Under the pieces are notes generated by a model. It was not told the DNA's origin. It saw only the letters and a list, made by a program, of their open reading frames with translations, and did no database searches. 64,000 nucleotides of DNA, taken from Styela clava (taxonomy: Eukaryota; Chordata; Ascidiacea; Stolidobranchia; Styelidae). The DNA is taken from contig NC_135263.1 in the NCBI RefSeq assembly GCF_964204865.1, positions 7,132,501-7,196,500 on the forward strand. Direction: 5' to 3'. This document shows, in pieces, positions 240 to 64,000 of this stretch (position 1 is its first letter; the number at the start of each line of letters is the position of its first letter). The position numbers were made by a program, and so were the translations under genes.

Positions 240-3200
240 CTTTACATGATAAGCCTGCCCAATCAGTTCTGAAGGATCCTCTACAAAATTTTCCTCTTCT
301 GGCAAAGGTTTCCCTTTAGCATTGCATGGTGATACAACAACGTATAAGCCTCCTTCTTCTTGACCCTGTCAAGTTATTAAAATAGGCAAACTGTATAAGC
401 ATTCGATGTTCAAAATCAATGAAATTCAAAACAATTGTTTTGTAATGACATTGTTTTAGAGAATTATTTTTTGCTGATCCTTTCAGGTTTAGAATAAACA
501 TATATATTCATATATATATATATATGTCAGAAAATACCGAAATTATTATTGTTATTCGTTGCGGTTGATAAGAGAGGCTTTTCATCCAAAGTATTGGATG
601 TGTAGTGTTATACGCTGTATTCATATACGCCTATAATATAGATAGCTAAAGATATACTGTACAAATTCTATTGCGCAGAAATGAATATAATTTTGGAGTA
701 TACTTTTCACAAAAAGCAGTCTAAAGCTTGCCTTGTGGTCAGTTATTGTAAGTTTGTCATCAAAATCAAGAGCATATGATAGAGATTGGAGGAATGCATT
801 CGACGAACCAATCAAATAATCTTGCGGTGGATCGTAGAACGGATCCTTCTCCTTTTCAATAGTCAAGTACGAATCATCTCCATCGACAAATTGTTGATAC
901 AATTCCTAAAGTTTAAAATAAAGACAATGCCGGTTTACTTTCTTGAATTATATTCTAGTTACTTAATTTTGATTATAATCTGAAAACTGTATACGCACTT
1001 GAATCATATATCGTCTGTTGATGAATTGTCCTCTTTCCCACATCCAAACATTTTTATTGAGAAGATTGGTTACACGAACCATAACTCTAAATACAAAATT
1101 AAATACGGGGGAATAAATAAATAAAAACTAAGGAGATTACATTCAATTTTTATGTCTGGTTTCACTGAAAAGCAACCAGATCAAACCTAAGCATTGAGCG
1201 TATTTGATGATTGATTTTGGTCCAAAATCGATAGATTAGTTGACTTTAATATGAAATTAAGAAAAATGAATATATAAAATAAACGCTTCATGGGATTCTT
1301 GAGGCCAAACGACCTAATTGCCTAATATGCAAATATGTTATGTGTAATTTGCAACTAAATCCCGAATTGATGATAGAATAATCCCTGACGGAAAAGTTCG
1401 TTATTGTTTTTGACTATTATATGTATTACCGTGTTCCTTTATCTTTATCGTCCTGTGTCGCACCAGATATCAGAATAAGTTCAAAATGTCTATATTTGTT
1501 CAATTCCTCAGATACCGCATTCACTTCACCAATCATTGGAAGAAGTTCAAGCACCTGTTCCTGAGCCTTTTGTTGATCTATTCAAGTAGATATGATTAAA
1601 AGATACTAGAAATTTATTTGAAACCTCAGCCTATTCTCATACCACCATACAGCAATATTTTACAAGTTATGGTAAACTAGAATAATCATTTATGAGGAAG
1701 GTTTCACCTTAAGGTCAGTTTCTTCAATTTACTAAAAATATGTAAAGTTTCAAACAGTTGCTGATTCAGCCGTTTGTTTATTATAAAAGAATATTATAAA
1801 GTTAAATATAGTATAAAGTTATAAAATGAAATCTTCATATCTTTGTGGTTCATGCCTGAATAACCTTTGCTTTACTTTTTTGATACAAGCTAATGAATAT
1901 ATTACCTTTAGTCAAGCCACTCTGCAAAGTTGAAAATCCACTATTTTCTGCCAATTCCTTTTGTGCAAAATCCCAATCTATAGTTTCGGGTGTCCCTTCA
2001 GGAGAAGTCGGTTTGAGTGGGTTTTGGAAGATATACAAATGATTGGAACCTTTGAGGAAATAGATATAAAATTGCAGATAAAATTGTATCACATAATTAA
2101 AAAATTGTATCAATTTTAATTTAATTACCGAACAATATTCTATCATTGTGCTCAAGTTTTCTTTCTCCGGTCAATGGCGTCCCGTTGACCTTCGTTTTTG
2201 CGCCTTGACTTCCGGGTTTTATGACGACCTCTCCATCGCTCAAACTCAAACTAGCATGCTCTTTTTGTATGCTGTAAGATATGAATTTGAACAGCCGAAA
2301 TTAATGAGTTGCAAAAAAGGGGAAAGGCAAACTTGGAAATGGACCTTAATTTAAATATGGTTTTCTCATCCAGACCAGGGTATTTTGCCGTAAAATATTC
2401 AGAGGTATTTTCCATCAGAAAAATAAAAATATAGTAAATAGTTCGTAGACTAACCTTAATCCTGTCAGAATAATGTTAGGCTTCGGATCGGCATCTTTTC
2501 TTCCAATCAATGTAACTTTGTCCTTTGATAATCCATGCACAATAACTCCGGATAACATTGGATCCTCGTTGAGGTTAACCAAATGTGGAACATTCTTTTG
2601 CTTTTCTTTCAGCTTCGTTTCCTTCATTGAAGTCTTTTCTTCTTGTCTGGCCTATTGAAACATTACGGAATGTAAAAAATGATCTGCAGCTGATCGAATG
2701 ATTTGTTATTGACTATAAATAGTGTGAAGTAATTTGTGAAGAATTGAATAACATTGTTATAGCTGCACCTCTTTCAATTTCTCGTCCCAATCCATTCCAG
2801 CTAAATCATTTTGGTTAGCAAGCAGCTGTGCACGAATTTCGTCTTCCATCTGTTTACGCATTTTGTCAACATCTGAATAACGAGATAAAAAGTTATGATA
2901 CACATTAATAGAGGTGTAAAATATTAGATGTGAAAAATTTAAAGTAAATTTGTGGTGTTTAAATATCATTTTCCCAATAATACCTTCTTGACTCATTCCT
3001 TTTTCTTGAGTAAGAACGACCCCTCCAGTTAGCGAAGCCTTAAGTCGTTCATTTTCTTCCCTCAATTCACGGATGAGTTTGTCCATAGGATTTTCATTCA
3101 CGACAGCTTTGTTCTTAATTTTCTTTGCTCTGTCAGCATACCTATAATTGTTTGATTAAAATTAGTTTGTATTGTCAAAGAAAATGGGATGTTATTTTAT

Positions 3201-6200
3201 TAAGGTAAACGATTTCGATGACACTTCAGCAAGTGATGAGTGAAAAGTTGACAAACAAACTAAAGTTTAGTAAGTTACTGGACGTAGTTATCTTGGTTGA
3301 AACAATCGACCAATTCTGGTATCTGTATCTCTATAATGCAGTGTTGTTTTTGTATGAGCACAAAAATTAGAAAAAAACAGAAAATATATACCTCAGTGTA
3401 CTCAAAGTTTCATCATAATTAATATCAGCAGGAGATAACGCAGCAATCATAATTGTTTTCGAATTTCCACCAAGAGCATTCATCAAAAGTTTAGTTAATA
3501 TGGAACCACGATATGGTACAAGGACCTTTTTCTTGCCCATTGACAAATCAGCAAGAGCCTGTGACAAAAGCAAACACCAATGATTAGGTGTTGAATTGCG
3601 TTTTAAAACAACGATAAAATAAAACGCAGCTCGCATTCTTTAAAAAAATGGATGGGGTAAAGTTGTTGAAGTGATAGATTGATATATAATACTGCCACTC
3701 GGTTATAGGCATTTTCATTATTTTAGACATAAGTTTGAGTCAGAGAAATCAAAAAGTCCATGGGGAGTGTTTTTTAAATACTATGAGAATATCCTTATTA
3801 AATAAATCATATGATGCACATAAGTAACTGAAGTTGCCTAACCTTTCTATGGGTTTGGTTTTATTACCAAATTACTGTTGATTTTACATTTATCAGAAAC
3901 AGGAACTGCAAATTGACATTGAAAAAAGAAATCTTAAATTCAGTTCTTACAAGACCTATACCGCAGGTTATCATTACAGGTTGTCTAACAAATTCATTTA
4001 AGTATTAAAATATTAGCTGAACGTGACTTCACCGAAATGACATTTCCAAGAGCTGAAAGAGATTTATTGATATTAGCTCCTTCCTTCAAACGATCACCCG
4101 TTGCTCCTGTGCTGTCAGCTCTTTCAGATCCTGAGTACACACGGAAATAATAGAAATCTCGTTAAATTTTTACAAAAATTGATTTACTCTAGTAGTGCAT
4201 ATGTTGAATGACAATGCTCCCAGTCATATTAGGCCAAAACAAATTGAATGTATGATTATAGTGCTAGCATGCAAAAAAGTCTCGTGGAAAGGGCGAACAA
4301 ACCGGCTAAATCGACGAGATTAATGCTGGAACTCTTTTTCGTTTCGTTTCCATCTTTTTTCATGATTTGGTCGAATGTGATCGTGACGACAGTATGGGCC
4401 CGAGAACTTGTAGCATTCATCTGCGTTGATGCAACAGTTCTATTTGCCGTTCCTGTTAAACACAGCTGTTATAGTTATTAAAGTTACAGATATACATCAG
4501 ATGTCTCTTTGAGAAAAGAAGAATTGTAGATAATTCTTAATCTGTGTATAATTCTATGTAAAAATATTAATATTTATTCGTACAAATTATCTCGTTCTAA
4601 ATGTTTCAACTCTACCAAATTACTGCTGCAATAGAAAATAGTTTCATCAATCACAACATTGAACAATGTTGAACGTGAACAATAGAAACTTGCATTTCAA
4701 GAAGTATACTCTTAACCTATAAGTATCTATAAGATATCTAAGCCTCTGTCATATAAACTTAGTTTTCAATGATCATATGTCATAGGTGTAACATTGTTAA
4801 ATGTTTCCAATCGTCATTTGAATGGCCTCTCTCGTTTTAAGGCATATTGGACAGCTGTTTGCTTCTTATCGCATGGTTATAATGTAATGGGATAGTAATT
4901 TTCAAGTTTAAGGTATACCTCTGCTACATATTCAGAACTGGCTGCGTGTTATTATCCATTCCAGTTTTCATTCTACTATTGAAGGTAGTAGAGAGGTTAA
5001 ATTAAAAGTTTGAATACCTTCATCCATTCTTCTTTCAATTTCTTTGTAACTACCAACGGCGACTTTTTTCTGATTTTCAACATAAAAGAGACCAAGTTTT
5101 GGGTTTTGTCGAACCGCCAGTCCTCCTTTTGGATTGTCCTTTGTAAGCAGATCTCGAACTTGTTCATTGTAAATTTCCAACATAGAAAACGTAATTTCGT
5201 ATTTCTGTAAACATAAAAAGTTTTATCGAAGTATAAAGATATTAACAACGTCAGAAATGAATGAAATACACAGAAATTTAAAACAAATAATATTCTCATC
5301 CAGTGAAATTAAAATGTTAGTATAAGGAGTTTGGAAAGAAGCCTATTGTATTTGAACACAATAATACTGACATTTGCATACACAAGATGGGAATATTAGT
5401 TACCACGGGAATGACGAACTCGTCAAATTTTCAATTATGGGGGATTAATTAAGGAAAGTTAGATGGCAAAATCGTATTTCTCCATATGCCGAATTTTTAT
5501 TTGTTTAAACCACCAACAATCTTTTCATCAAAGTGCTATATCTTTATAAAAACATCAGTATATATGAAATTTCATCAATTGATATTTCATAGCTGTGCTT
5601 ACTACCTATTTCAACAAATAACAACTTTTATGGCAATTTCGTGGGAGTGGTATATTTTAAAACCTGAAACTTTATCTTACGAGTCATAAAGTTATAAAAA
5701 AATTATTTGTTCTATTGTTCATTGACATTCAAGAAAATGTTTTCTGACACTTTATAAACTAAATATTTTCCGACGCCAATTCATACAATAAAATATCGTT
5801 TGGAGAATTGTCGATTTTTGTCTGAAAAATATGTACGTTTCAATTTGGCGAAACAGAATTGTACTTACGACATCTCCCGATGCCCTTTCAATTGCTTGAA
5901 ACAATTCATCACAGGAAATAGGCACAATTCCCCTAAAATGTAAGTAACAAATATTTAGTCTACGACTACTATCTAAAACGTAATTTATATATTCCTTGGA
6001 ATCGCGATATTCATTACATACTATACTAGATCAGAAGTTTTAAAAATTTGGAGTTGGAACATCAAAATTATGAATGATAGTAGATGCAGACGAATTTAAT
6101 AAAATTGCTAGAAGGTTACAAGAGTTTCATATTACCTTACCTTGTTTATTTCAAGGAATTGTTCAGTATTTCAATTTGAATTATTTGTGTTTATTGCGAT

Positions 6201-31400: not shown

Positions 31401-32594
31401 TTGTATGGACCCAGCCTTACAACAAGTATTCACTGTATTTTTAATTTCACCAAATATATCTAGGGGTGAGCTTAAGCTTAATTATTGACCTAAATCATAA
31501 ATTTCAGGTTTCATCTCTTATTAAGTGACAATTATCCCACCTTTACAAGCAGTCAGTCATGCTTGTGAAAACTCATATTGTCTTTTCTCGGCATGACATT
31601 TTTATTACCTATTATCTACTATGAATTTTTTTTTACATATTTGATTCAACTTTGATTGAACCACTGTGTGAATGAGAAGATATTATGTAAGAAAAAACCT
31701 TGGCTAGTCATCCACTGTGATGCCATGTAATATCAGAACAAAGTCAGTTATATATTGGTAATATTTGAGCCTGATCTAAGTTACTAAGAACTTGGTCTCT
31801 GGCACCCTTAACATTATTATAATGTTAAACCATATTCGATTGTAAATTGTTTTTTGATCTTTGTACATTTGTCACCGTTGAGTCATATGACGTTAGATTT
31901 TCATCAATCTACCTTTATTTATTCCAAGTTGTGTATAAAGCGGTTAGTTCCACAAGACATTTAATCCTATCTTGATCTTGTGGAATACCGTTTATTCATT
32001 GATCATGTCCTTTCTGATTTTACAATTCCAGTGTGCTAAACTTTGATTCCAGAACGCAATCATTGAATCCAGAAACAGACTCTCGTACATTTAATTATAT
32101 TCTTTTCTTACCATAAAGGTTGAATTATTTATTACTACTACTATTGTATGCATATTATACAACTGGCAGGCTTTCCGTTTGTGAAAGTCAGTTTTACTGA
32201 AGCCCTGCGCCATACACAATCAACGTACAGTTTTCTATATAAGACCACAGTCGCTTCACAATAGTACAATTGTGAACCACTGTGAAGCTAGCAGCACTTT
32301 CAGCCAGAATATTTTTACACATTGAATATATGTTCTACGCGCATATAATGTTCACTTATAGTTACATATAAAAATTGAAAAGGCTGATCAAAATATAACT
32401 GTAGCACGGAAATACATGAAAAATCTTTAAACTGAATGAATAGAATAAATTTGACAAGGAAATATTGTTTAAAAAAAGACTAACTGAGCGGAAAATGAAT
32501 TTTCAGATATTCCGCAAATACGAAGTTTCGAAAAATTATCGTATTTGGAACGTCGATTTCTCGAAAACCGCCAATAAAGGCAGTACCACGACAC
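28443..32594. other. Long gene-poor stretch
   Basis: AT-rich sequence with no protein family I recognise apart from one small unassigned ORF (separate entry). CAGTGTTTTCCAATCTCACA near 30192 and CAGTGGTTCCAGC near 30568 look like lone hAT ends, but I could not find partners or duplicated targets. Confidence 0.35.
29730..29978 (-). CDS. Small hypothetical protein (82 aa), doubtful
   Basis: An ATG-initiated ORF on the minus strand. Its composition is balanced and fairly hydrophilic, with a segment AIIAFAKLRRQVLTS in the middle and a polar C-terminus. No signal peptide, membrane segment or known motif is seen. It lies alone in a long gene-poor stretch, so it may be chance or a relic. Confidence 0.25.
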   Translation of the reverse strand: MILFEDIQTTGAFPNAPPNKTGTRFKTSTQNAIIAFAKLRRQVLTSMSSTGHTNFAFDFSRADLELQVSQNELSANDERQKS

Positions 32595-32845
32595 ATAGAT
32601 GGAAGAAAGAATATTTGCCTCTGCTACAAGAAAGACAAAAATGGCACACTACACAAAGAAATCTGGAAGATGGCGATTTGGTGTTGATCTTTGATGATAG
32701 TTCCCCTCGTAGTCCTTGGCCGAAGGCTATTGTTGATGAGACATACCCTGACAAGCATGGTATTGTTCGAAGGGTCAAGGTCCGTACTGCAAATTCTACC
32801 TATGTAAGGGATGTTCGCAAATTGTGCTTGTTAGAGGCCATATAG
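32595..32845 (+). pseudogene. BEL/Pao retrotransposon pol C-terminus remnant (DUF5641-like)
   Basis: The open frame reads from HRWKKEYLPLLQERQKW through a GDLVLIFDD block, WPKAIVDE, the GIVRRVKVRT block and VRKLCLLE to a stop. This order of motifs is the conserved tail of BEL/Pao polyproteins that follows the integrase. Sequence before about 32595 is not pol-like, so the element is truncated at its 5' side. No reverse transcriptase, RNase H or integrase core is left nearby. Confidence 0.8.
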
Positions 32846-53815: not shown

Positions 53816-54600
53816 AAGGGATAATGGGAGCCGTAAAGAAGCCGTTGACTGGTCTATATTCTATCTATACGATTTATCACGGTGGAAATTTTAACAATGC
53901 ACTTGAATTTATTATTCCTTCACTCAAATCTGGCTGCTCCCCTGGTCCTGATGGGATAACCAAGAAACATCTGATAAATTCTCATCCTATTTTATCAGCG
54001 CTTTTATGTTGGTATATGAACACCTGTATGAATCATAGTTATACTCCACCATCTTCTCTTTAAGAACAAAAATTTGTAGCGCAAGTAACTACAGGCAGTA
54101 TCAGTATCGAGGTAGCCTCTGTCTTATCTAAGATTTTTGAAGAACGTATTTTAAATAACATTGAATCTTATTTGACTACATCTCACAACAAGTTTGGTTT
54201 CAAGCCTAGTCACGGTACTGACATGTACAGTTTCACACTAAAACAGCTAGTTGCTTATTATTCCAAAAAATCCTCAGCAGTTTTTATAGCTTTTTTTGGA
54301 TGCTACTAAAGATTTTGATCAAGTTAATCATTGGTCTCTATTTCGTAAATTTATCAACAGAAAAAGTCCGAAAATATTTTTGTATCTGATTGTGCACATG
54401 TATCGTAGTCAATCCATGTTTGTTAGCTGTGTGTCAGATGCATTCTCTGTCCATAATGGCACCAAGCAAGGCAGTATTTTAAGTCCGTATTTATATGCTG
54501 TTGTCGTGGATGTTCTTTCTAATAAGGTAAATTTATAGGCCATTGGATGTGTTGCAAATAGAAAAATGTTCAGTCATATTTTTCAATGATCTTAATTCTC
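53816..54600 (+). pseudogene. Broken non-LTR retrotransposon reverse transcriptase
   Basis: Frames in order: SLKSGCSPGPDGITKKHL, VLSKIFEERILNNIE followed by HNKFGFKPSHGTDM, then after a frameshift DATKDFDQVNHWSLFRKF, MYRSQSMFVSCVSDAFSVHN and GTKQGSILSPYLYAVVVDVL. These are the fingers and palm motifs of a non-LTR reverse transcriptase. At least one stop (near 54061) and one frameshift (near 54290) disable it. The typical ADD box, endonuclease and 5' part are not visible. A CR1/jockey-like clade is likely, and it is distinct from the R2-like fragments. Confidence 0.8.
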
Positions 54601-54934: not shown

Positions 54935-55378
54935 GCGGTTTGGCTCACCGTGGTGGAAATAGGCTCGCCCCCGCATCTCTGATTACTTTGCGTGGGTTCG
55001 CAGGTTCGAATCCCATGCGGGGATGGTCATGTGCGAAAGGATTGCTCCTCGCCACCGTAGGGTGGCTCACGTAACCGCTGGTCGGTTAACTTGAACCTGA
55101 ACTGTTTGTGACGGGCTCCTCTCCGATTCTAAACTTTCTCACTTATGGCCTTTCAATATAAACAGGACCTGTGTGCTACGACGCACTCTTTTTTGAGTCC
55201 TATGAGCTTTTTAGTCTACTCAGCCCTACCTTAAACTTGATTCACTTCATTGTGGTATTTTCCTGTGATATTCTTATATACTGTGCTATTTTTGTATTTG
55301 ACTGGGTTTATTGATTTATTTGTGTTATTTAATATGAACCATGATGGTCTGGTATAATAAACTTGAATTGAATTAACA
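54935..55378 (+). mobile_element. tRNA-derived SINE
   Basis: Starts with a tRNA-like head: TTTGGCTCACCGTGGTGG as box A and GGTTCGAATCC as box B (about 55004), about 55-65 nt apart. An unrelated body follows, then a tail ATAATAAACTTGAATTGAATT. Head, body and short repetitive tail are the standard parts of a SINE transcribed by RNA polymerase III. A TTGAATTGAATT tail suggests a partner LINE with the same 3' end. It lies just after the broken LINE reverse transcriptase. Confidence 0.75.
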
Positions 55379-56334
55379 AACTAAATCCTGTGTTTTCCAA
55401 TGGGTTTTAACCCTTTGACAACTTACCGCCTCAGTCAAACTCAAATTTATTGCATGTATACATAACAATGCGACCGTTCTGCTAGCACCAAAAGTGCTCA
55501 AGCCAGACGCTCGATCGAGCGCCTCCTACATATTAGTCGAGACAACGGCTCGCTCATTAGCATCGTCTTTGTACTTTAACATTTTTTTGGCTCTGCCGCT
55601 ATCGACACCGAGGCGCCGCTTCTGTCGCGACGCGGCACTCTCTCGCCCGCCGAGGTAGAATGCCGGTCACCGTGCGCCGGACGGCGCGGCGAAAAAAAAA
55701 GACAAGTCTAACAACACGATGGCCCGGCGGGTGGAGTGAAAAAAAAATCCCAAAAGGACAAATCGAAGATCTTGAGGATGACTCTCAACACTTCGCAGTG
55801 AGAAACTGCTCTTGTGGGTACGACACCCCGATCTTTGATAAACAGCATCAGCGATGGTGGTCGATCGACGCCGCACGACGGCGGAGTCACGCCAAATTCA
55901 TAACCCGGTTCCCTGGCTCTTTGGTTGTCTATTCTCGATATTGTGATCAAAACAGGCATCGTTTTTCAATATATCCTTCGCATTTTTTGACGTCTTGGAC
56001 GCTCTGTCTGTGCTGTTGTGTGGCGTTGTCTGTCGGATAGATTTATATTTGGCAAGTTACAATTGGCGCAAAAGAAGAAAAGCGAAGTTATAAATAGAGT
56101 ACCGGTACCGGTACGCTACCACTGTCATGCCAGCCAAATACCAGCCAAATATCAAACTCATATTCCCGAATTTCATATTAAAGTGTTTCCTGGTCTAACA
56201 AAATGTACTTCCTGACTTTCTACGAAAACTAATACTTTGGGACATCACGCTATCGGAGGATTTATATTCAGATGTTGATTTGGGAATATTACTGCAACTT
56301 ATTATAATGACATGATATGGAAATATTCAATATT
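55379..56334. other. GC-richer patch between SINE and repeat array
   Basis: Positions 55560-55730 are notably GC-rich (GAGGCGCCGCTTCTGTCGCG), and a 126-codon ATG ORF runs 55660-56040 with a basic start and a CSCGYDTP segment. I recognise no domain. It may be part of a promoter or CpG-rich repeat. Confidence 0.35.
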
Positions 56335-59300
56335 TGAAAAAAAAGTTCAGTTATGTGAAAATTGAATTTTTTCATTAAAAAATAGAATTATTTCAAATCT
56401 TTCCGGCCTCGGAGGAAAAGATTTGAATATACCATTGGGTAGAGGATTAACATAAGAACATATTCCGACAAAAAAATTTGAGTGATTTTCGAACTTTTTG
56501 AGGTTCGAAAATCTTTCAAGTATGCGAAAATTGAATTTTTTTAATAAAAAATCGAATTATTTTAAATCTTTCCGGTCTCGAGGGCAAAGATTTGAATATA
56601 CCATTGGATAGGGCACTAACATAAGTACATATTCCAACAAAAAATTGTGGTGACATCCCACGAGTTTTCGAATTTTTTGAGGTTCGAAACTGTTCAAATA
56701 CACAAAAATTGAACTTTATCATAAAAAATCGAATTATTTCGAATCTTTCCGGTCTTGGGGGCAAAGATTTGAATTTACCATTGGATAGAGGACTAACATA
56801 AAAATATATTCCAACAAAAAAATTGTGGTGACATCCGACGAGTTTTTGAACTTTTTGAGGTTCGAAAATGTTCAAGTATAAAAAAATTTTACTTTTTCAC
56901 AAAATATCGAATTATTTCGAATCTTTCCGGTCTCGGGGGCAAAGATTTGAATATACCATTGGATAGTAGACTAATATAGAAACATATTCCAACAAAAAAA
57001 TTGTGGTGACATCCAACGAGTTTTCGAACTTTTTGAGGTTCGAAAATGTTCAAGTATGAAAAAATTGAACTTTTTCACAAAATATCGAATTATTTCGAAT
57101 CTTTCCGGTTTCGGGGGCAAAGATTTGAATTTACCATTGGATAGAGGACTAACATAAAAACATATTTCAACCAAAAAATTGTGGTGACATCCGAAGAGTT
57201 TTCGAACTTTTTGAGGTTCGAAACTGTTCAAATACACAAAAATTGAACTTTTTCATAAAAAATCGATATATTTCGAATCTTTTCGGCCTTGGGGGCAAAG
57301 ATTTGAATTTACCATTGGATAGAGGACTAACATAGGAACATATTCCAACAAAAAAATTGTGGTGACATCCCACGAGTTTTTGAACTTTTTGAGGTTCGAA
57401 ATTGTTCAAGTATGAAAAAATTTAACTTTTTCACAAAATATCGAATTATTTCGAATCTTTCCGTTCTTGGGGGCAAAGATTTGAATTTACCATTGGATAG
57501 AAGACTAACATAGGAACATATTCCAACAAAAAATTGTGGTGACACCCGACGAGTTTTCGAAATTTTTAAGGTTCGAAACTGTTCAAATACACAAAAATTG
57601 AACTTTTTCATGAAAAATCAAATTATTTCGAATCTTTCCGGTCTTGGGGGCAAAGATTTGAATATACCATTGGATAGAGGACTAACATAGGAACATATTC
57701 CAACGATAAAATTGTGGTGACATCCGACGAGTTTTCGAACTTTTTGAAGTTCGAAAATGTTCAATTATGAAAAATTTAACTTTTTCACAAAATATCGAAT
57801 TATTTCGAATCTTTCCGGTCTTGGGGGCAAAGATTTGAATATACCATTGGATAGAAAACTAATATAGGAACATATTCCAACAAAAAAATTGTGGTGACAT
57901 CTGAAGAGTTTTCGAACTTTTTGAGGTTCGAAAATGTTCAAGTATGAAAAATTTAACTTTTTCACAAAATATCGAATTATTTCGAATCTTTCCGGTCTTG
58001 GGAGCAAAGATTTGAATATACCATTGGATAGAAGACTAATATAGAAACATATTCCAACGAAAAAATTGTGATGACATCCGACGAGTTTTCGAACTTTTTG
58101 AGGTTCGAAAATGTTCAAGTATGAAAAATTTAACTTTTTCACAAAATATCGAATTATTTCGAATCTTTCCGGTCTTGGGGGCAAAGATTTGAATATACCA
58201 TTGGATAGAAGACTAATATAGGAACATATTCCAACGAAAAAATTGTGGTGACATCCAACGAGTTTTCGAACTTTTTGAGGTTCGAAAATGTTCAAGTATG
58301 AAAAATTCAACTTTTTCACAAAATATCGAATTATTTCGAATCTTTCCGGTCTTGGGGGCAAAGATTTGAATATACCATTGGATAGAAGACTAATATAGGA
58401 ACATATTCCAACAAAAAAATTGTGGTGACATCCGACGAGTTTTCGAACTTTTTGAGGTTCGAAAATGTTCAAATACACAAAAATTGAACTTTTCCACAAA
58501 ATATCGAATTATTTCGAATCTTTTCGGTCTTGGGGGCAAAGATTTTAATATACCATTAGATAGAAAACTAATATAGGAACATATTCCAACTAAAAAATTG
58601 TGGTGACATCTGACGAGTTTTCGAACTTTTTGAGGTTCGAAAATGTTCAAGTATGAAAAAATTGAACTTTTTCACAAAATATCGAATTATTTCGAATCTT
58701 TCCGGTCATGAGGGCAATGATTTGAATATACCATTGGATAGAAGACTAACATAGGAACAGATTCCAACAAAAAAATTGTGGTGACACCCGACGAGTTTTC
58801 GAACTTTTTGAGGTTCGAAACTGTTCAAATACACAAAAATTGAACTTTTTCATAAAATATCGAATTATTTCGAATCTTTCCGGTCTCGGGGGCAAAGATT
58901 TGAATATACCATTGGATAGAAGACTAATATAGGAACATATTCCAACAAAAAAATTGTGGTGACATCCGACCAGTTTTCGAACTTTTTGAGGTTCGAAAAT
59001 GTACAAGTATGAAAAAATTGAACTTTTTCACAAAATATCGAATTATTTCGAATCTTTTCGGTCTCGGGGGCAAAGATTTGAATATACCATTGGATAGAAG
59101 ACTAATATAGGAACATATTCCAACAAAAAAATTGTGGTGACATCCGACCAGTTTTCGAACTTTTTGAGGTTCGAAAATGTACAAGTATGAAAAAATTGAA
59201 CTTTTTCACAAAATATCGAATTATTTCGAATCTTTCCGGTCTTGGGGGCAATGATTTGAATTTACCATTAGATAGAGGACTAACATAAAAATATATTCCA

Positions 59301-61075
59301 ACAAAAAAATTGTTGTGACATCCAAAGAGTTTTCGAACTTTTTGTGGTTCGAAACTGTTCAAATACACAAAAATTAAACTTTTTTCATAAAAAATCGAAT
59401 TATTTCGAATCTTTCCGGTTTCGGGGGCAAAGATTTGAATTTACCATTGGATAGAGGACTAACATAAAAATATATTCCAACAAAAAAATTGTGGTGACAT
59501 CCAAAGAGTTTTCGAACTTTTTGAGATTCGAAACTGTTCAAATACACAAAAATTGAACTTTTTCATAAAAAATCGAATTATTTCGAATCTTTCCGGTCTC
59601 GGGGGCAAAGATTTGAATAAACCATTGGATAGAAGACTAACATAGGAACATATTCCAACAAAAAAATTGTGGTGACACCCGACGAGTTTTCGAACTTTTT
59701 GACGTTCGAAACTGTTCAAATACACAAAAATTTAACTTTTTCACAAAATATCGAATTATTTCGAATCTTTCCGGTATCGGGGGCAAAGATTTGAATATAC
59801 CATTGAATAGAAGACTAATATAGGAACATATTCCAACGAAAAAATTGTGGTGACATCCGACGAGTTTTCGAACTTTTTGAGGTTCGAAAATGTTCAAATA
59901 CACAAAAATTGAACTTTTCCACAAAATATCGAATTATTTCGAATCTTTCCGGTCTTGGGGGCAAAGATTTGAATATACCATTGGATAGAAGACTAATATA
60001 GGAACATATTCCAACGAAAAAATTGTGGTGACATCCGACGAGTTTTCGAACTTTTTGAGGTTCGAAAATGTTCAAGTATGAAAAATTTAACTTTTTCACA
60101 AAATATCGAATTATTTCGAATCTTTCCGGTCCTGGGGGCAAAGATTTGAGTATACCATTGGATAGAAGACTAATATAGGAACATATTCCAACAAAAAAAT
60201 TGTGGTGACATCTGACGAGTTTTCGAACTTTTTGAGGTTCGAAAATGTTGAAGTATGAAAAAATTGAACTTTTTCACAAAATATCGAATTATTTCGAATC
60301 TTTCCGGTCTTGGGGGCAATGATTTGAATTTACCATTAGATAGAGGACTAACATAAAAATATATTCCAACAAAAAAATTGTGGTGACATTCGACGAGTTT
60401 TCGAACTTTTTGTGGTTCGAAACTGTTCAAATAAACAAAAATTAAACTTTTTTCATAAAAAATCGAATTATTTCGAATCTTTCCGGTCTCGGGGGCAAAG
60501 ATTTGAATATACCATTGGATAGAGGACTAACATAAAAACATATTCCAACGAAAAAATTGTGGTGACATCCGAAGAGTTTTAGAACTTTTTGAGGTTCGAA
60601 AATGTTCAAATACACAAAAATTGAACTTTTTCATGAAAAATCTAATTATTTCGAACTTTCCGGTCTTGGGGGCAAAAGTTTGAAAACACCATTGGATAGA
60701 GGACTAATAAAAAAATTTATTTCAACAAAAAAATTGTAGTGACATTCGACGAGTTTTTACACTTTTTGAGGTTCGAAAGTGGTCAATTTCGCTAAAACTG
60801 AACTTTTCACTCGAAAAATCGATTTATTTTGAATCTTTCCGGTCTCGGAGGTGAAAATTTGAAAATACATTGGATACTGACTAATGAAACAACTTATTCC
60901 AACAAAAAAATTGTAGTGACACCATTGAAGTTTTTGAACGTTTGAGGTTCAATTATTGGCAAATTTTTCATAATTGAAAATTTTGATGAGATAATTTTTC
61001 CGACTATTTTCAAATTTTGCGGACCCGGATGAAAAAAATTGAAGTTATCTATTATGATTCAAAAATTAATTTATT
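56335..61075 (-). repeat. Tandem array of ~178-bp units, left arm of a large inverted repeat
   Basis: About 26 head-to-tail copies. The period is 178 bp, with some 177-bp units. Each unit contains TCGAATTATTTCGAATCTTT, CCATTGGATAGA, ATTCCAACAAAAAAATTGTG and TTTTCGAAC-TTTTTGAG-GTTCGAAAA. Copies from about 56.9 to 60.6 kb are very alike, while the inner end (60.65-61.07 kb) decays gradually. Chance ORFs of 86 aa or more run through units on the minus strand, but most lack an ATG or shift frame each unit, so they are not called as genes. Confidence 0.93.
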
Positions 61076-61426
61076 TTATGAAATTATAAGTAGAGGTTAC
61101 GCGAGGCTAACTACTTATTCTTTTTCAATGCCTTTGCGCTAGTGGATTCATATGCATGTGATGCAAGGATGCTGACTTAAGCAGGAATTAAAATACCATA
61201 CTATACAATTCAAGAGTGCTGCTGCACACCAGCACAAATGTATTTCTGTAACGTTTTCCCTGACCCAAACCAGAATTCCGCAGACAAGCAGTTTACTACA
61301 ATCCTTGTGTTTTGGATTTTTGCGCATAGGAACCAGAAAACGTTGGTTTTTCAAGACGAAAATTTGTCTATTTCGAGTCCTGGCAATTAACTGTCACCTT
61401 CCGCTGAAGGTCTTAGACCACCTCAC

Positions 61427-62113
61427 CTAAAGTTGAATTTTAAATGAGGTACGATAGCAATAAAAGTAAAAACAAGCGTGATTTTCTTTAAACATAATAA
61501 TTTTGACAACCAAATATTGAATTATTCGGAGACAAAAGTGAAAGCCTTCTAAAGAAAAATGCAAACTTGAAGCACTGAAAAGCTTTTGTTTATTAGAGCA
61601 GATCATATTGACTGCCATACACATGTATACTCCACAACTCATTTGGTCTACATGAGGGAGCATAACCAATTGATCGAATCTGACATCTTCTATATTTTCA
61701 AATTGTTTTAGGAAGGGCATGAAGTGAATATTTATTTTGCTTTTTAATTCGTCATTATTACCGTCAGCCGAATCAATCAATGTCAGAGAACCGGAAGACG
61801 AGCACATATGCAGGACAGTAAAATGATTTTCATATAATATTGGATAAAATGTATGCTCACGGAGAATCTTGTTATTGGAAGGTGTAGTTAATTCCTGTTT
61901 CAAATTAGTGAAGTTTTTTATTTTTTTTCCAGATAAAATATGGTTAGTGAACAAAGCAGCAACAGAACCATGAATATTATTTTCTTGTAGTTCGTTGTAA
62001 CTGCGAGTCAATTGCTGAATGAACGCGCAAGCAACATTATCGGTCAGCCATCCGCGATTATGATAAGGATTATTTGAATGCTTTTTAGGGCACTTTTTTG
62101 TGTAATTGAACAT
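61427..62113 (-). CDS. Ulp1/SENP-like cysteine protease domain (C48), 228 aa
   Basis: By family, cleaves SUMO or ubiquitin-like peptides, or processes transposon/viral proteins. The N-terminal part has GWLTDNVACAFIQQL, the WLxDxxI motif of Ulp1 domains. The catalytic triad fits His97 in ENHFTVLHM, Asp114 in LTLIDSADG and Cys160 in MSCGVYMCM. The usual oxyanion Gln about six residues before the Cys appears replaced by His154, with Gln157 nearby; this needs an alignment. About 170 residues look like protease; the last 50 are less conserved-looking and may be past the true exon end. The ATG lies inside the first repeat unit of the right arm, with an in-frame stop four codons upstream, so either translation begins here or an upstream exon is lost. 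Transposons of the KDZ, Mutator-like and Maverick groups carry such proteases; a diverged cellular copy is the alternative. Confidence 0.75.
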   Translation of the reverse strand: MFNYTKKCPKKHSNNPYHNRGWLTDNVACAFIQQLTRSYNELQENNIHGSVAALFTNHILSGKKIKNFTNLKQELTTPSNNKILREHTFYPILYENHFTVLHMCSSSGSLTLIDSADGNNDELKSKINIHFMPFLKQFENIEDVRFDQLVMLPHVDQMSCGVYMCMAVNMICSNKQKLFSASSLHFSLEGFHFCLRIIQYLVVKIIMFKENHACFYFYCYRTSFKIQL

Positions 62114-64000
62114 TTTCGAACCTCAAAAAGTTCGAAAACTCGTCAGATGTCACCACCATTTTTTTGTTGGAATATATTTTTATGTTAGTCCTCTATCTAA
62201 TGGTAAATTCAAATCATTGCCCCCAAGACCGGAAAGATTCGAAATAATTCGATTTTTTGTGGAAAAGTTCAATTTTTGCATACTTGAACATTTTCGAACC
62301 TCAAAAAGTTCGAAAACTCGTCAGATGTCACCACAATTTTTTTGTTGGGATATGTTCCTATATTAGTCTTCTATCCAATGGTATATTCAAATCTTTGCCC
62401 CCAAGACCGGAAAGATTCGAAATATTTCGATTTTTTGTGGAAAAGTTCAATTTTCGCATACTTGAACAATTTCGAACATCAAAAAGTTCGGAAACTCTTC
62501 GGATGTCACCACAATTTTTTTGTTGGAATATGTTCCTATATTAGTCTTCTATTCAATGGTATATTCAAATCTTTGCCCCCAAGACCGGAAAGATTCGGAA
62601 TAATTCGATATTTCATGAAAAAGTTCAATTTTTGTGTAATTGAACATTTTCGAACCTCAAAAAGTTCGAAAACTCGTCAGATGTCACCACAATTTTTTTG
62701 TTGGAATATGTTTCTATATTAGTCTTCTATCCAATGGTATATTCAAATTTTTGCCCCCAAGACCGGAAAGATTCGGAATAATTCGATTTTTCATGAAAAA
62801 GTTCAATTTTTGTGTAATTGAACATTTTCGAACCTCAAAAAGTTCGAAAACTCGTCAGATGTCACGACCATTTTTTTGTTGGAATATATTTTTATGTTAG
62901 TCCTCTATCTAATGGTAAATTCAAATCATTGCCCCCAAGACCGGAAAGATTCGAAATAATTCGATTTTTTGTGGAAAAGTTCAATTTTCGCATACTTGAA
63001 CATTTTCGAACCTCAAAAAGTTCGAAAACTCGTCGGATGTCACCACAATTTTTTTGTTGGAATATGTTCCTATATTAGTCTTCTATTCAATGGTATATTC
63101 AAATCTTTGCCCCCAAGACCGGAAAGATTCGGAATAATTCGATTTTTCATGAAAAAGTTCAATTTTTGTGTAATTGAACATTTTCGAACCTCAAAAAGTT
63201 CAAAAACTCGTCAGATGTCACCACAATTTTTTTGTTGGAATATATTTTTATGTTAGTCCTCTATCTAATGGTAAATTCAAATCATTGCCCCAAAGACCGG
63301 AAAGATTCGAAATAATTCGATTTTTTATGAAAAAGTTCAATTTTCGCATACTTGAACAATTTCGAACATCAAAAAGTTCGGAAACTCTTCGGATGTCACC
63401 ACAATTTTTTTGTTGGAATATGTTCCTATATTAGTCTTCTATTCAATGGTATATTCAAATTTTTGCCCCCAAGACCGGAAATATTCGGAATAATTCGATA
63501 TTTCATGAAAAAGTTCAATTTTTGTGTAATTGAACATTTTCGAACCTCAAAAAGTTCGAAAACTCTTCAGATGTCACCACAATTTTTTTTTTGGAATTTG
63601 TTCCTATATTAGTCTTCTATCCAATGGTATATTCAAATCTTTGCCCCCAAGACCGGAAAGATTCGAAATAATTCGATTTTTTGTGGAAAAGTTCAATTTT
63701 CGCATACTTGAACATTTTCGAACATCAAAAAGTTCGGAAACTCTTTGGATGTTACCACAATTTTTTTGTTGGAATATGTTCCTATATTAGACTTCTATTC
63801 AAGAGTATATTCAAATCTTTCCCCCCAGGACCGGAAAGATTCGGAATAATTCGATATTTCATGAAAAAGTTCAATTTTTGTGTAATTGAACATTTTCGAA
63901 CCTCAGAAAGTTCGAAAACTCGTCAGATGTCACCACAATTTTTTTGTTGGAATATGTTCCTATATTAGTCTTCTATCCAATGGTATATTTAAATCTTTGC
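62106..64000 (+). repeat. Tandem array of ~178-bp units, right arm of the inverted repeat
   Basis: At least ten copies of the same unit as the left arm but in reverse-complement orientation, running to the window edge. The inner boundary is sharp at about 62105. Units fall into mixed subtypes, for example one with TCTAATGGTAAATTC and AAATCATTGCC at about 62200, 62920 and 63275, and another with GAACATCAAAAAGTTCGG at about 62473, 63363 and 63721. The first subtype also occurs in the left arm. Confidence 0.93.

Follow-up and report, generated by a model that had tools for sequence, protein, structure and literature searches.

Foldback transposons carry inverted arms made of tandem repeats, as do FB/NOF of Drosophila and FARE of Arabidopsis, and Kaonashi Mutator-like elements (MULEs) have ULP-like genes aboard. 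We analyzed a structure of this general layout in the ascidian Styela clava. It lies in a stretch of 64,000 nucleotides, hereafter the window (C18:7132501-7196500 of the 376.6-Mb assembly; positions without a prefix count from its first base), in which two inverted arms of a 178-bp satellite enclose a short core with a fragment of a protease gene. Our results make it very probable that this structure belongs to a foldback-type DNA transposon, as a non-autonomous copy with internal deletions.

We compared the element with the described systems to the extent covered by the accessible parts of the cited reports. Tetris, a foldback element of Drosophila virilis, has arms of ~220-bp repeats in variable copy number, a variable middle domain, and target-site duplications (TSDs) of 8-10 bp. 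Satellite arrays were seeded by its repeats, and those parts record no transposase or coding capacity for it (PMC4079207). The Styela family resembles Tetris in its inverted arms of a satellite-length tandem repeat with variable copy number, and differs in that one copy (on C9) has a 1757-codon open reading frame (ORF) between the arms, that arms reach at least 89 units, and that the core occurs in both orientations (PMC4079207). Tm1, a Mutator/foldback element of root-knot nematodes, has TSDs of 8-10 bp (mostly 9), asymmetric ends, coding and non-coding groups, arm repeats of 13-15 bp in variable number, and a transposase resembling the Phantom subclass of Mutator (PMC3169594). Our family shares with it the variable tandem-repeat foldback arms, the asymmetric ends, and the coexistence of transposase-coding and non-coding copies, whereas the satellite-length unit and the protease domains are not reported for Tm1 in the part consulted (PMC3169594). 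Muta1 and other MULEs of Aedes aegypti have 8-9-bp TSDs, long terminal inverted repeats, and subterminal tandem repeats of 9-15 bp; Muta1 is called a type 2 foldback element and encodes a 504-aa transposase, and the main text of that report, as far as accessible, does not contain the term "Ulp" (PMC5225508). The foldback layout and the 8-9-bp TSDs are common to Muta1 and our family, in contrast to the 178-bp units and the 1757-aa protein found here (PMC5225508).

Ulp1 and PHD domains occur in Ginger1 and hydra Mutator transposases, and in Trichomonas a C19 domain accompanies a transposase_11 domain; a ubiquitin/SUMO role in transposition was proposed on that occasion (PMC2836005). Unlike our family, Ginger has a Gypsy-type integrase, and neither PHD, Ulp1, and USP together nor satellite arms are reported in the accessible part of that work (PMC2836005). 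Galileo, a foldback-like member of the P superfamily, has long, internally repetitive inverted ends and a P-type transposase with a THAP domain (PMC4079207), unlike the C9 protein, for which no THAP domain is listed at E values up to 1. Foldback transposons with repeat arms (Tm1, Tetris) and Ulp1 domains in transposons are therefore already known. A preliminary description of the window had proposed an undescribed class of mobile element; the mobile element stands, but "undescribed class" is too strong in view of Tetris and Tm1. The polyprotein and the sibling families with unrelated satellite arms presented below had no description among the titles and abstracts listed by the searches, which covered open-licence literature only and are not proof of novelty.

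The window copy starts at 56118 and ends at a right (R) terminus 1,905 bases beyond the window end. Its parts are as follows.

56110-56117, no strand: left copy of the TSD, GGTACGCT; the right copy, at C18:7198406-7198413, lies outside the window.
56118-56345, plus strand: left (L) terminus, (A)CCACTGTCATGCCAGCCAAATACCAGCCAAAT, then unique subterminal DNA; 27 of 32 bases identical to the R terminus.
56341-60923, minus strand: L arm, 26 units of the 178-bp satellite, the outermost and innermost decayed (Tandem Repeats Finder (TRF) and profile search).
60924-61581, plus strand: core piece 1, a decayed array edge to ~61060, then noncoding DNA; 98.5% to C9 core 1-659.
61581-61582, no strand: deletion junction 1, ~2.79 kb of core gone; breakpoint identical in the C1 copy.
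61582-62093, minus strand: core piece 2, polyprotein gene fragment for residues 1058-1229 of 1757; the Ulp1/C48 domain without its C terminus.
61427-62113, minus strand: 228-aa ORF, comprising core piece 2 with read-through into the array and, at the other end, into core piece 1.
62093-62094, no strand: deletion junction 2, ~4.26 kb of core gone, the core abutting the R arm; junction identical in C1.
62093-64000, plus strand: R arm, 178-bp units in the opposite orientation, running on to C18:7198330, with the terminus at C18:7198405.

TRF found a period of 178 at 56486-60950 (25.1 copies) and 62095-64000 (10.7 copies). The profile search gave 26 matches at 56341-60923, all oriented alike, and 12 of opposite orientation (10 near full length) at 62093-64000, with 22 altogether when the R array was followed to its end. 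These counts bear out the earlier report of inverted 178-bp arrays with about 26 minus-oriented units and at least 10 plus-oriented units continuing off the window; its start of the feature, 56335, is replaced by 56118. One more decayed L-arm unit was detectable at ~60924-61060 (local score of 77, where 200 shuffles reached at most 56). Mean unit identity in the window copy was 90.1% within the left arm, 91.6% within the right arm, and 90.0% between them.

Compared with C9, the window copy lacks core 660-3451 and everything from 3965 to the R arm. The minus-strand ORF that had been reported as a C48 protease is present, and the homologous domain of the C9 copy passes the C48 cut-off. What had been taken for a whole protease gene in the loop is, however, a truncated remnant of the 1757-aa polyprotein gene after two deletions. 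The conserved C48 Gln is replaced by His in the window fragment, and in the C1 sister copy the Gln is kept and the reading frame is broken. The fragment is therefore unlikely to be functional, and with both deletions also considered we do not regard the window protease as a working gene. Searched by itself against Pfam and PDB, the window ORF yielded nothing useful and had no match to Pfam C48; an NCBIfam search returned nothing relevant, and scans of viral contigs with a repeat 21-mer and with the protease found no related loci. A protein search with the ORF returned P0001 (1 of 373 candidates), with 98% identity over 20% of the query. P0001 retains the Gln and the C terminus missing from the window copy, and by eye it ends in the same shifted frame as the C6b copy described next.

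The preliminary description had recommended a genome search with the spacer between the arms, which it called unique. That search recovered other copies flanked by arms of the same kind. The whole spacer recurs on C1 at 98%, and it is present on C9, C6 (two copies, C6a and C6b), and C14 with its two halves ~2.8-4.3 kb apart. All six core-bearing copies that were fetched have both inverted 178-bp arms, each arm holding from 4 to at least 89 units. Between the arrays lie 8.2 kb in C9, C6a, and C14, ~10 kb in the C6b copy, and ~1.1-1.2 kb in the copies on C18 and C1.

The termini of the five copies read at both ends, and of C6b at one end, are ACCACTGTCATGCCAGCCAAATACCAGCCAAAT on one side and GCCACCGCAATGCCAGCAAAATTCCAGCCAAAT on the other (opposite strand). 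Counted from CCAC, L and R termini agree at 27 of 32 positions, making the terminal repeats imperfect. Perfect TSDs, all different, flank five of five copies: GGTACGCT (C18), GGTCAACGG (C1), CTCAAAAC (C9), GAAATCCG (C6a), and TATCGTCGG (C14). The longest strings shared across the flanks are 10, 9, 8, 10, and 9 bases in the same order. Because the base beside CCAC is constant in the ends seen (always A on the L side and G on the R side) and probably the element's own, we count the TSDs as 8 or 9 bp; the shared string in C18 is 10 bp when the constant terminal A and C are reckoned as flank. In a control, 5 of 5000 random 14-mer pairs from the window had at least 8 bases in common. The outer right end and its TSD, which the preliminary description had proposed to seek, were thus located in the assembly, at C18:7198405 and C18:7198406-7198413.

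Genome searches with the termini gave at least 29 matches for L (at least 13 at ≥87% over ≥190 of 228 bases) and at least 41 for R (at least 13 at ≥91% over ≥110 of 115 bases). Of the 13 L termini found at that threshold, 12 pair with a correctly oriented R terminus, forming elements of 1.1, 2.9, 4.4, 4.4, 5.8, 6.3, 8.9, 9.0, 9.8, 14.5, 16.0, and 20.2 kb; sequence at both ends was read for five of the 12. The C1 and window copies have both deletion junctions in common, with different TSDs and arm lengths. One deletion derivative at two target sites therefore points to movement in trans. Inverted tandem-repeat arms around a middle, TSDs at dispersed copies, and variable arm length are the features of a foldback element, and together with at least 12 paired-termini elements and spacer copies between like arms they support the earlier proposal of a mobile element with satellite arms.

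The preliminary description had offered as its other option a protease gene captured at a satellite inversion point. A gene or gene fragment might have come to lie there by chance, in an ordinary satellite array and with no mobility involved; satellite arrays change orientation frequently, and the array edges seen here are decayed like those of ordinary satellites. The spacer, however, is multi-copy, with a second full copy at 98% and split copies elsewhere, and the same termini and layout recur at separate sites with distinct TSDs. A single-copy spacer, which had been named as a finding that would speak against mobility, is thus not what the genome contains. We regard the chance inversion as already refuted and assign it almost no probability.

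Further copies were seen alongside these. At C14:21722653-21723775, ~12 kb from the 14.5-kb C14 copy, there is a small one of 1.1 kb that has both termini and contains four units. Four sister elements of 5.7-12.2 kb, at C17:7.679-7.691M, C14:8.518-8.528M, C2:14.165-14.171M, and C18:14.650-14.656M, have L (82-90%, partial lengths) and R (85-86%) termini paired in the correct orientation. C9b (C9:8242675-8259695), a 77% relative at the protein level, has paired termini ~17 kb apart, a diverged 178-bp array, and a flipped core.

The C9 copy contains a single uninterrupted minus-strand frame of 1757 codons; the sole other frame of at least 90 aa in its core encodes 103 aa. The order within the protein is a PHD finger (residues 176-219, E 1.3e-5 in Pfam), a putative DDE transposase, a Ulp1/C48 protease, and a USP deubiquitinase (USP/UCH domain PF00443 above cut-off at residues 1270-1536, E 1.1e-18). 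Peptidase_C48 (PF02902) was matched in the excised C9 region with E 1.3e-4 (22.3 bits against a cut-off of 20.7) and is absent from the Pfam listing of the full-length protein at E up to 1. PF02902 matches three of five members at E up to 10, the C48 residues H89, D106, Q146, and C152 are invariant in all five aligned proteins, and SENP8 (E 0.12) is the only PDB match of the C48 profile up to E 10. The region upstream of the C48 domain may be a DDE transposase: the candidate catalytic residues D566, D640, C686/H689, and E897 are invariant in four proteins, and D566/D640/E897 and C686/H689 may correspond to the DDE and CxxH motifs.

The other long-cored copies are interrupted, into three frames in C14, five in C6a, and more in C6b. 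Their ratios of nonsynonymous to synonymous substitution rates (dN/dS) against C9 are, as point estimates, 0.47 (C6a), 0.55 (C14), and 0.49 (C6b), which suggests past selection on the protein. In the protein database, three proteins of 1735-2074 aa (3 of 2524 candidates) are 37-39% identical over residues 440-1000. All three match PHD (two below the curated cut-off), and two have a USP domain above cut-off: P0002 and P0003 are positive, and in P0004, which ends inside the domain, it was not detected. The USP domain of a 46% relative gave E 3.9e-19. A profile search of proteins added two fragments (2 of 2934 candidates).

Searching the genome with the C9 protein gave 46 matches. Beyond the family and C9b, these include 19 loci at 31-46% (best piece), 18 of which have open frames of 1033-1950 codons. 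The flanks were tested at 11 of the 19 related loci, and at six of the 11 there are inverted arrays on both sides.

C1:9.18M: unit of 186 bp.
C14:20.09M: unit of 196 bp.
C6:15.75M: unit of 185 bp.
C8:8.397M: unit of 196 bp.
C18:11.807M: unit of 196 bp.
C2:18.747M: unit of 196 bp on one side and 212 bp on the other, cross-matching at ~82%.

By eye, the 196-bp units of C14, C8, C18:11.8M, and C2 look like one satellite; taken as one, there are four arm satellites including the 178-bp unit of the window. The consensus units of 178, 186, 196, and 185 bp have no convincing similarity, with local scores inside the range of 100 shuffles bar the comparison of 178 with 185 given below. In the 77% relative C9b, the 178-bp units are still recognized by the profile of the window family. 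The unrelated units of the siblings thus indicate that the layout persists while the arm sequence turns over, the unit length staying at 178-196 bp. Nucleosomes as the reason for this length are speculation. The same loci bear on the idea that the satellite arms are an assembly artefact. Tandem inverted repeats are difficult to assemble, and the evidence here comes from the assembly; the architecture, however, is found at many loci with differing arm lengths and unit sequences, and the flanks on the two sides of the arms have common TSDs in five copies. An artefact is accordingly very improbable.

Within the arms, units are decayed at the edges and more homogeneous in the middle. For 310 units, the nearest neighbor was in the same arm of the same element in 181 cases, in the same arm of another element in 103, in the other arm of the same element in seven, and in the other arm of another element in 19. 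This comparison covered units of at least 165 profile positions that lie inside the C14 element or in the other copies except C9b. The two arms therefore mostly evolve apart and are inherited with the element. One C6b arm (C6:64254-79999) has at least 89 units and extends beyond the DNA that was fetched, with self-match peaks at 178 and 1245 bases, a higher-order period of about seven units.

The C terminus of the ORF points toward the L end in C9, C6b, C18, and C1 and toward the R end in C6a and C14, so that two of six copies are flipped. Strongly decayed inner-edge units (79-86% identity) lie in the L arm of C9, C18, and C1; in C6a and C14 they are found in the R arm, so that their position follows that of the core. 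This edge test was made on the copies other than C6b, and the two-unit L arm of C14 did not suffice for it. The R arms of C6a and C14 consist of L-like units apart from a single R-like one in the outermost position, the pattern expected after a crossover close to the R end. Recombination between the arms could produce the core inversion.

Core inversion and arm-length variation indicate rearrangement through the arms, as would be expected had the structure spread with no transposase, through segmental duplication or through ectopic recombination of satellite arrays. The sharp termini beside unrelated flanks, the 8-9-bp TSDs in five of five copies, and a polyprotein ORF with signs of constraint argue against such a spread, which we consider highly unlikely. 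For a foldback-type transposon, we propose that the transposase domain of the polyprotein would cut at the imperfect terminal repeats and insert the element with an 8-9-bp stagger, and that short copies such as that of the window would be mobilized in trans. The satellite arms may lengthen and shorten by unequal exchange and recombine with each other, flipping the core. The PHD finger probably directs the protein to chromatin. For the Ulp1 and USP domains, the probable task during transposition is to remove SUMO and ubiquitin from factors of repair or silencing, or else to cleave the polyprotein.

Several observations weigh against this account. No transposition was observed, and what the two protease domains do is purely inferred. 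In Pfam, nothing matches the transposase region above cut-off, none of the 123 matches of a genome-wide search with PF10551 (MULE transposase) falls at the loci of the family, and the AlphaFold model of the region is poor (mean predicted local distance difference test score, pLDDT, 41.5). Among the 12 paired elements, the L match lacks the first 20 bases in two (C10:17.5k and C14:21.72M); in the terminus searches, the L terminus at C2:11.57M had no partner and the L end of C6b was not found. C9b shows one array only, its L flank having been only partly fetched. Of the 11 related loci with tested flanks, two have an array on a single side within the DNA fetched (C1:30.75M, 370 bp, examined at C1:30755700-30759700; C18:15.2M, 196 bp, examined at C18:15213700-15217700), and three have none (C18:17.54M in 4-kb flanks; C10:16.48M and C4:11.09M in 701-base snippets). 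In 30 comparisons of units, two scores exceeded the maximum of 100 shuffles, each by one point: 178 against 185 (minus), and the 196-bp unit of C14 against that of C18:15.2M (plus). Finally, the L-end arm of the flipped C6a copy lacks the R-like inner units expected from a simple single crossover, and L-like inner units are present in the R arm of C6b too, a copy that is not flipped. Unit typing alone therefore does not prove the flip, and one has to assume later turnover or that R-like units spread within the C9/C1/C18 lineage.

The superfamily of the element is unsettled. Its TSDs of 8-9 bp fit the MULE criterion of about 8-11 bp and have the size reported for mosquito MULEs in the accessible part of that work (PMC5225508). 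PF10551 gives weak matches, short of the curated cut-off, to two of five members (best E 0.019), and in P0005 it covers residues 631-692, the expected stretch (E 0.041, 14.8 bits against a cut-off of 27.6). A PDB search with the transposase profile gave nothing credible. The 123 genome matches of PF10551 include many ordinary MULE transposase frames (best E 6.1e-10). Because the PF10551 cut-off is not reached and the genome-wide search misses the loci of the family, we do not call the element a MULE member; it is MULE-like in its target-site behavior. The same two results leave room for a transposase of KDZ/Zisupton or an unnamed superfamily rather than a Mutator-like one, and the TSDs of Zisupton are 8 bp. 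Against this stand the weak PF10551 matches, the TSD size, and the absence of a KDZ family among the Pfam scan matches at E up to 10, the Pfam library presumably containing a KDZ model. We consider a non-Mutator origin possible, though the less probable option; it is compatible with a foldback-type transposon in either case. Maverick/Polinton, with its DNA polymerase B, integrase, and capsid genes, was rejected, as the C9 ORF lists only UCH and PHD families and the other frame has just 103 aa, and so was Ginger1, as no integrase family appears in the C9 Pfam scan at E up to 1.

Other repeats were noticed in the window. The spacer part at 61086-61302 (query 12-228) has 61 further places in the genome at 83-88%, often as nearby inverted pairs; judged from these matches, another dispersed repeat appears to sit in, or derive from, this end of the core. 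Near or to the left of the element we recognized by eye a remnant of a reverse transcriptase of the long interspersed nuclear element (LINE) type (53824-54538), a BEL/Pao-like integrase tail (32444-32845), and a tRNA-like short interspersed nuclear element (SINE) sequence (55000-55110).

Taken jointly, these results give about an even chance that we are dealing with an undescribed lineage of giant satellite-armed transposons, perhaps a superfamily of its own. Such a lineage would have kept the PHD-transposase-Ulp1-USP protein while taking its arms from unrelated near-nucleosomal satellites (178, 185, 186, and 196 bp), and the arms would serve as recombination tracks that invert the core. If so, the elements would work as factories in which new families of satellite DNA arise and from which these are carried along the chromosomes. 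The origin and spread of satellite DNA is a long-standing open question; foldback elements, Tetris among them, have been suggested as a source, without an autonomous copy in the accessible part of that report (PMC4079207). Here, one genome holds a copy with an uninterrupted frame, deletion derivatives, arms whose size ranges from 4 to at least 89 units, cores in either orientation, and relatives with unrelated units, so that array birth, homogenization, edge decay, and arm-to-arm recombination can be compared within it. Since the polyprotein unites SUMO-protease-like and deubiquitinase-like domains with a putative transposase, the role proposed for ubiquitin/SUMO in transposition (PMC2836005) becomes testable. 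The family is thus an unusual example of a transposon that may build and spread satellite DNA.

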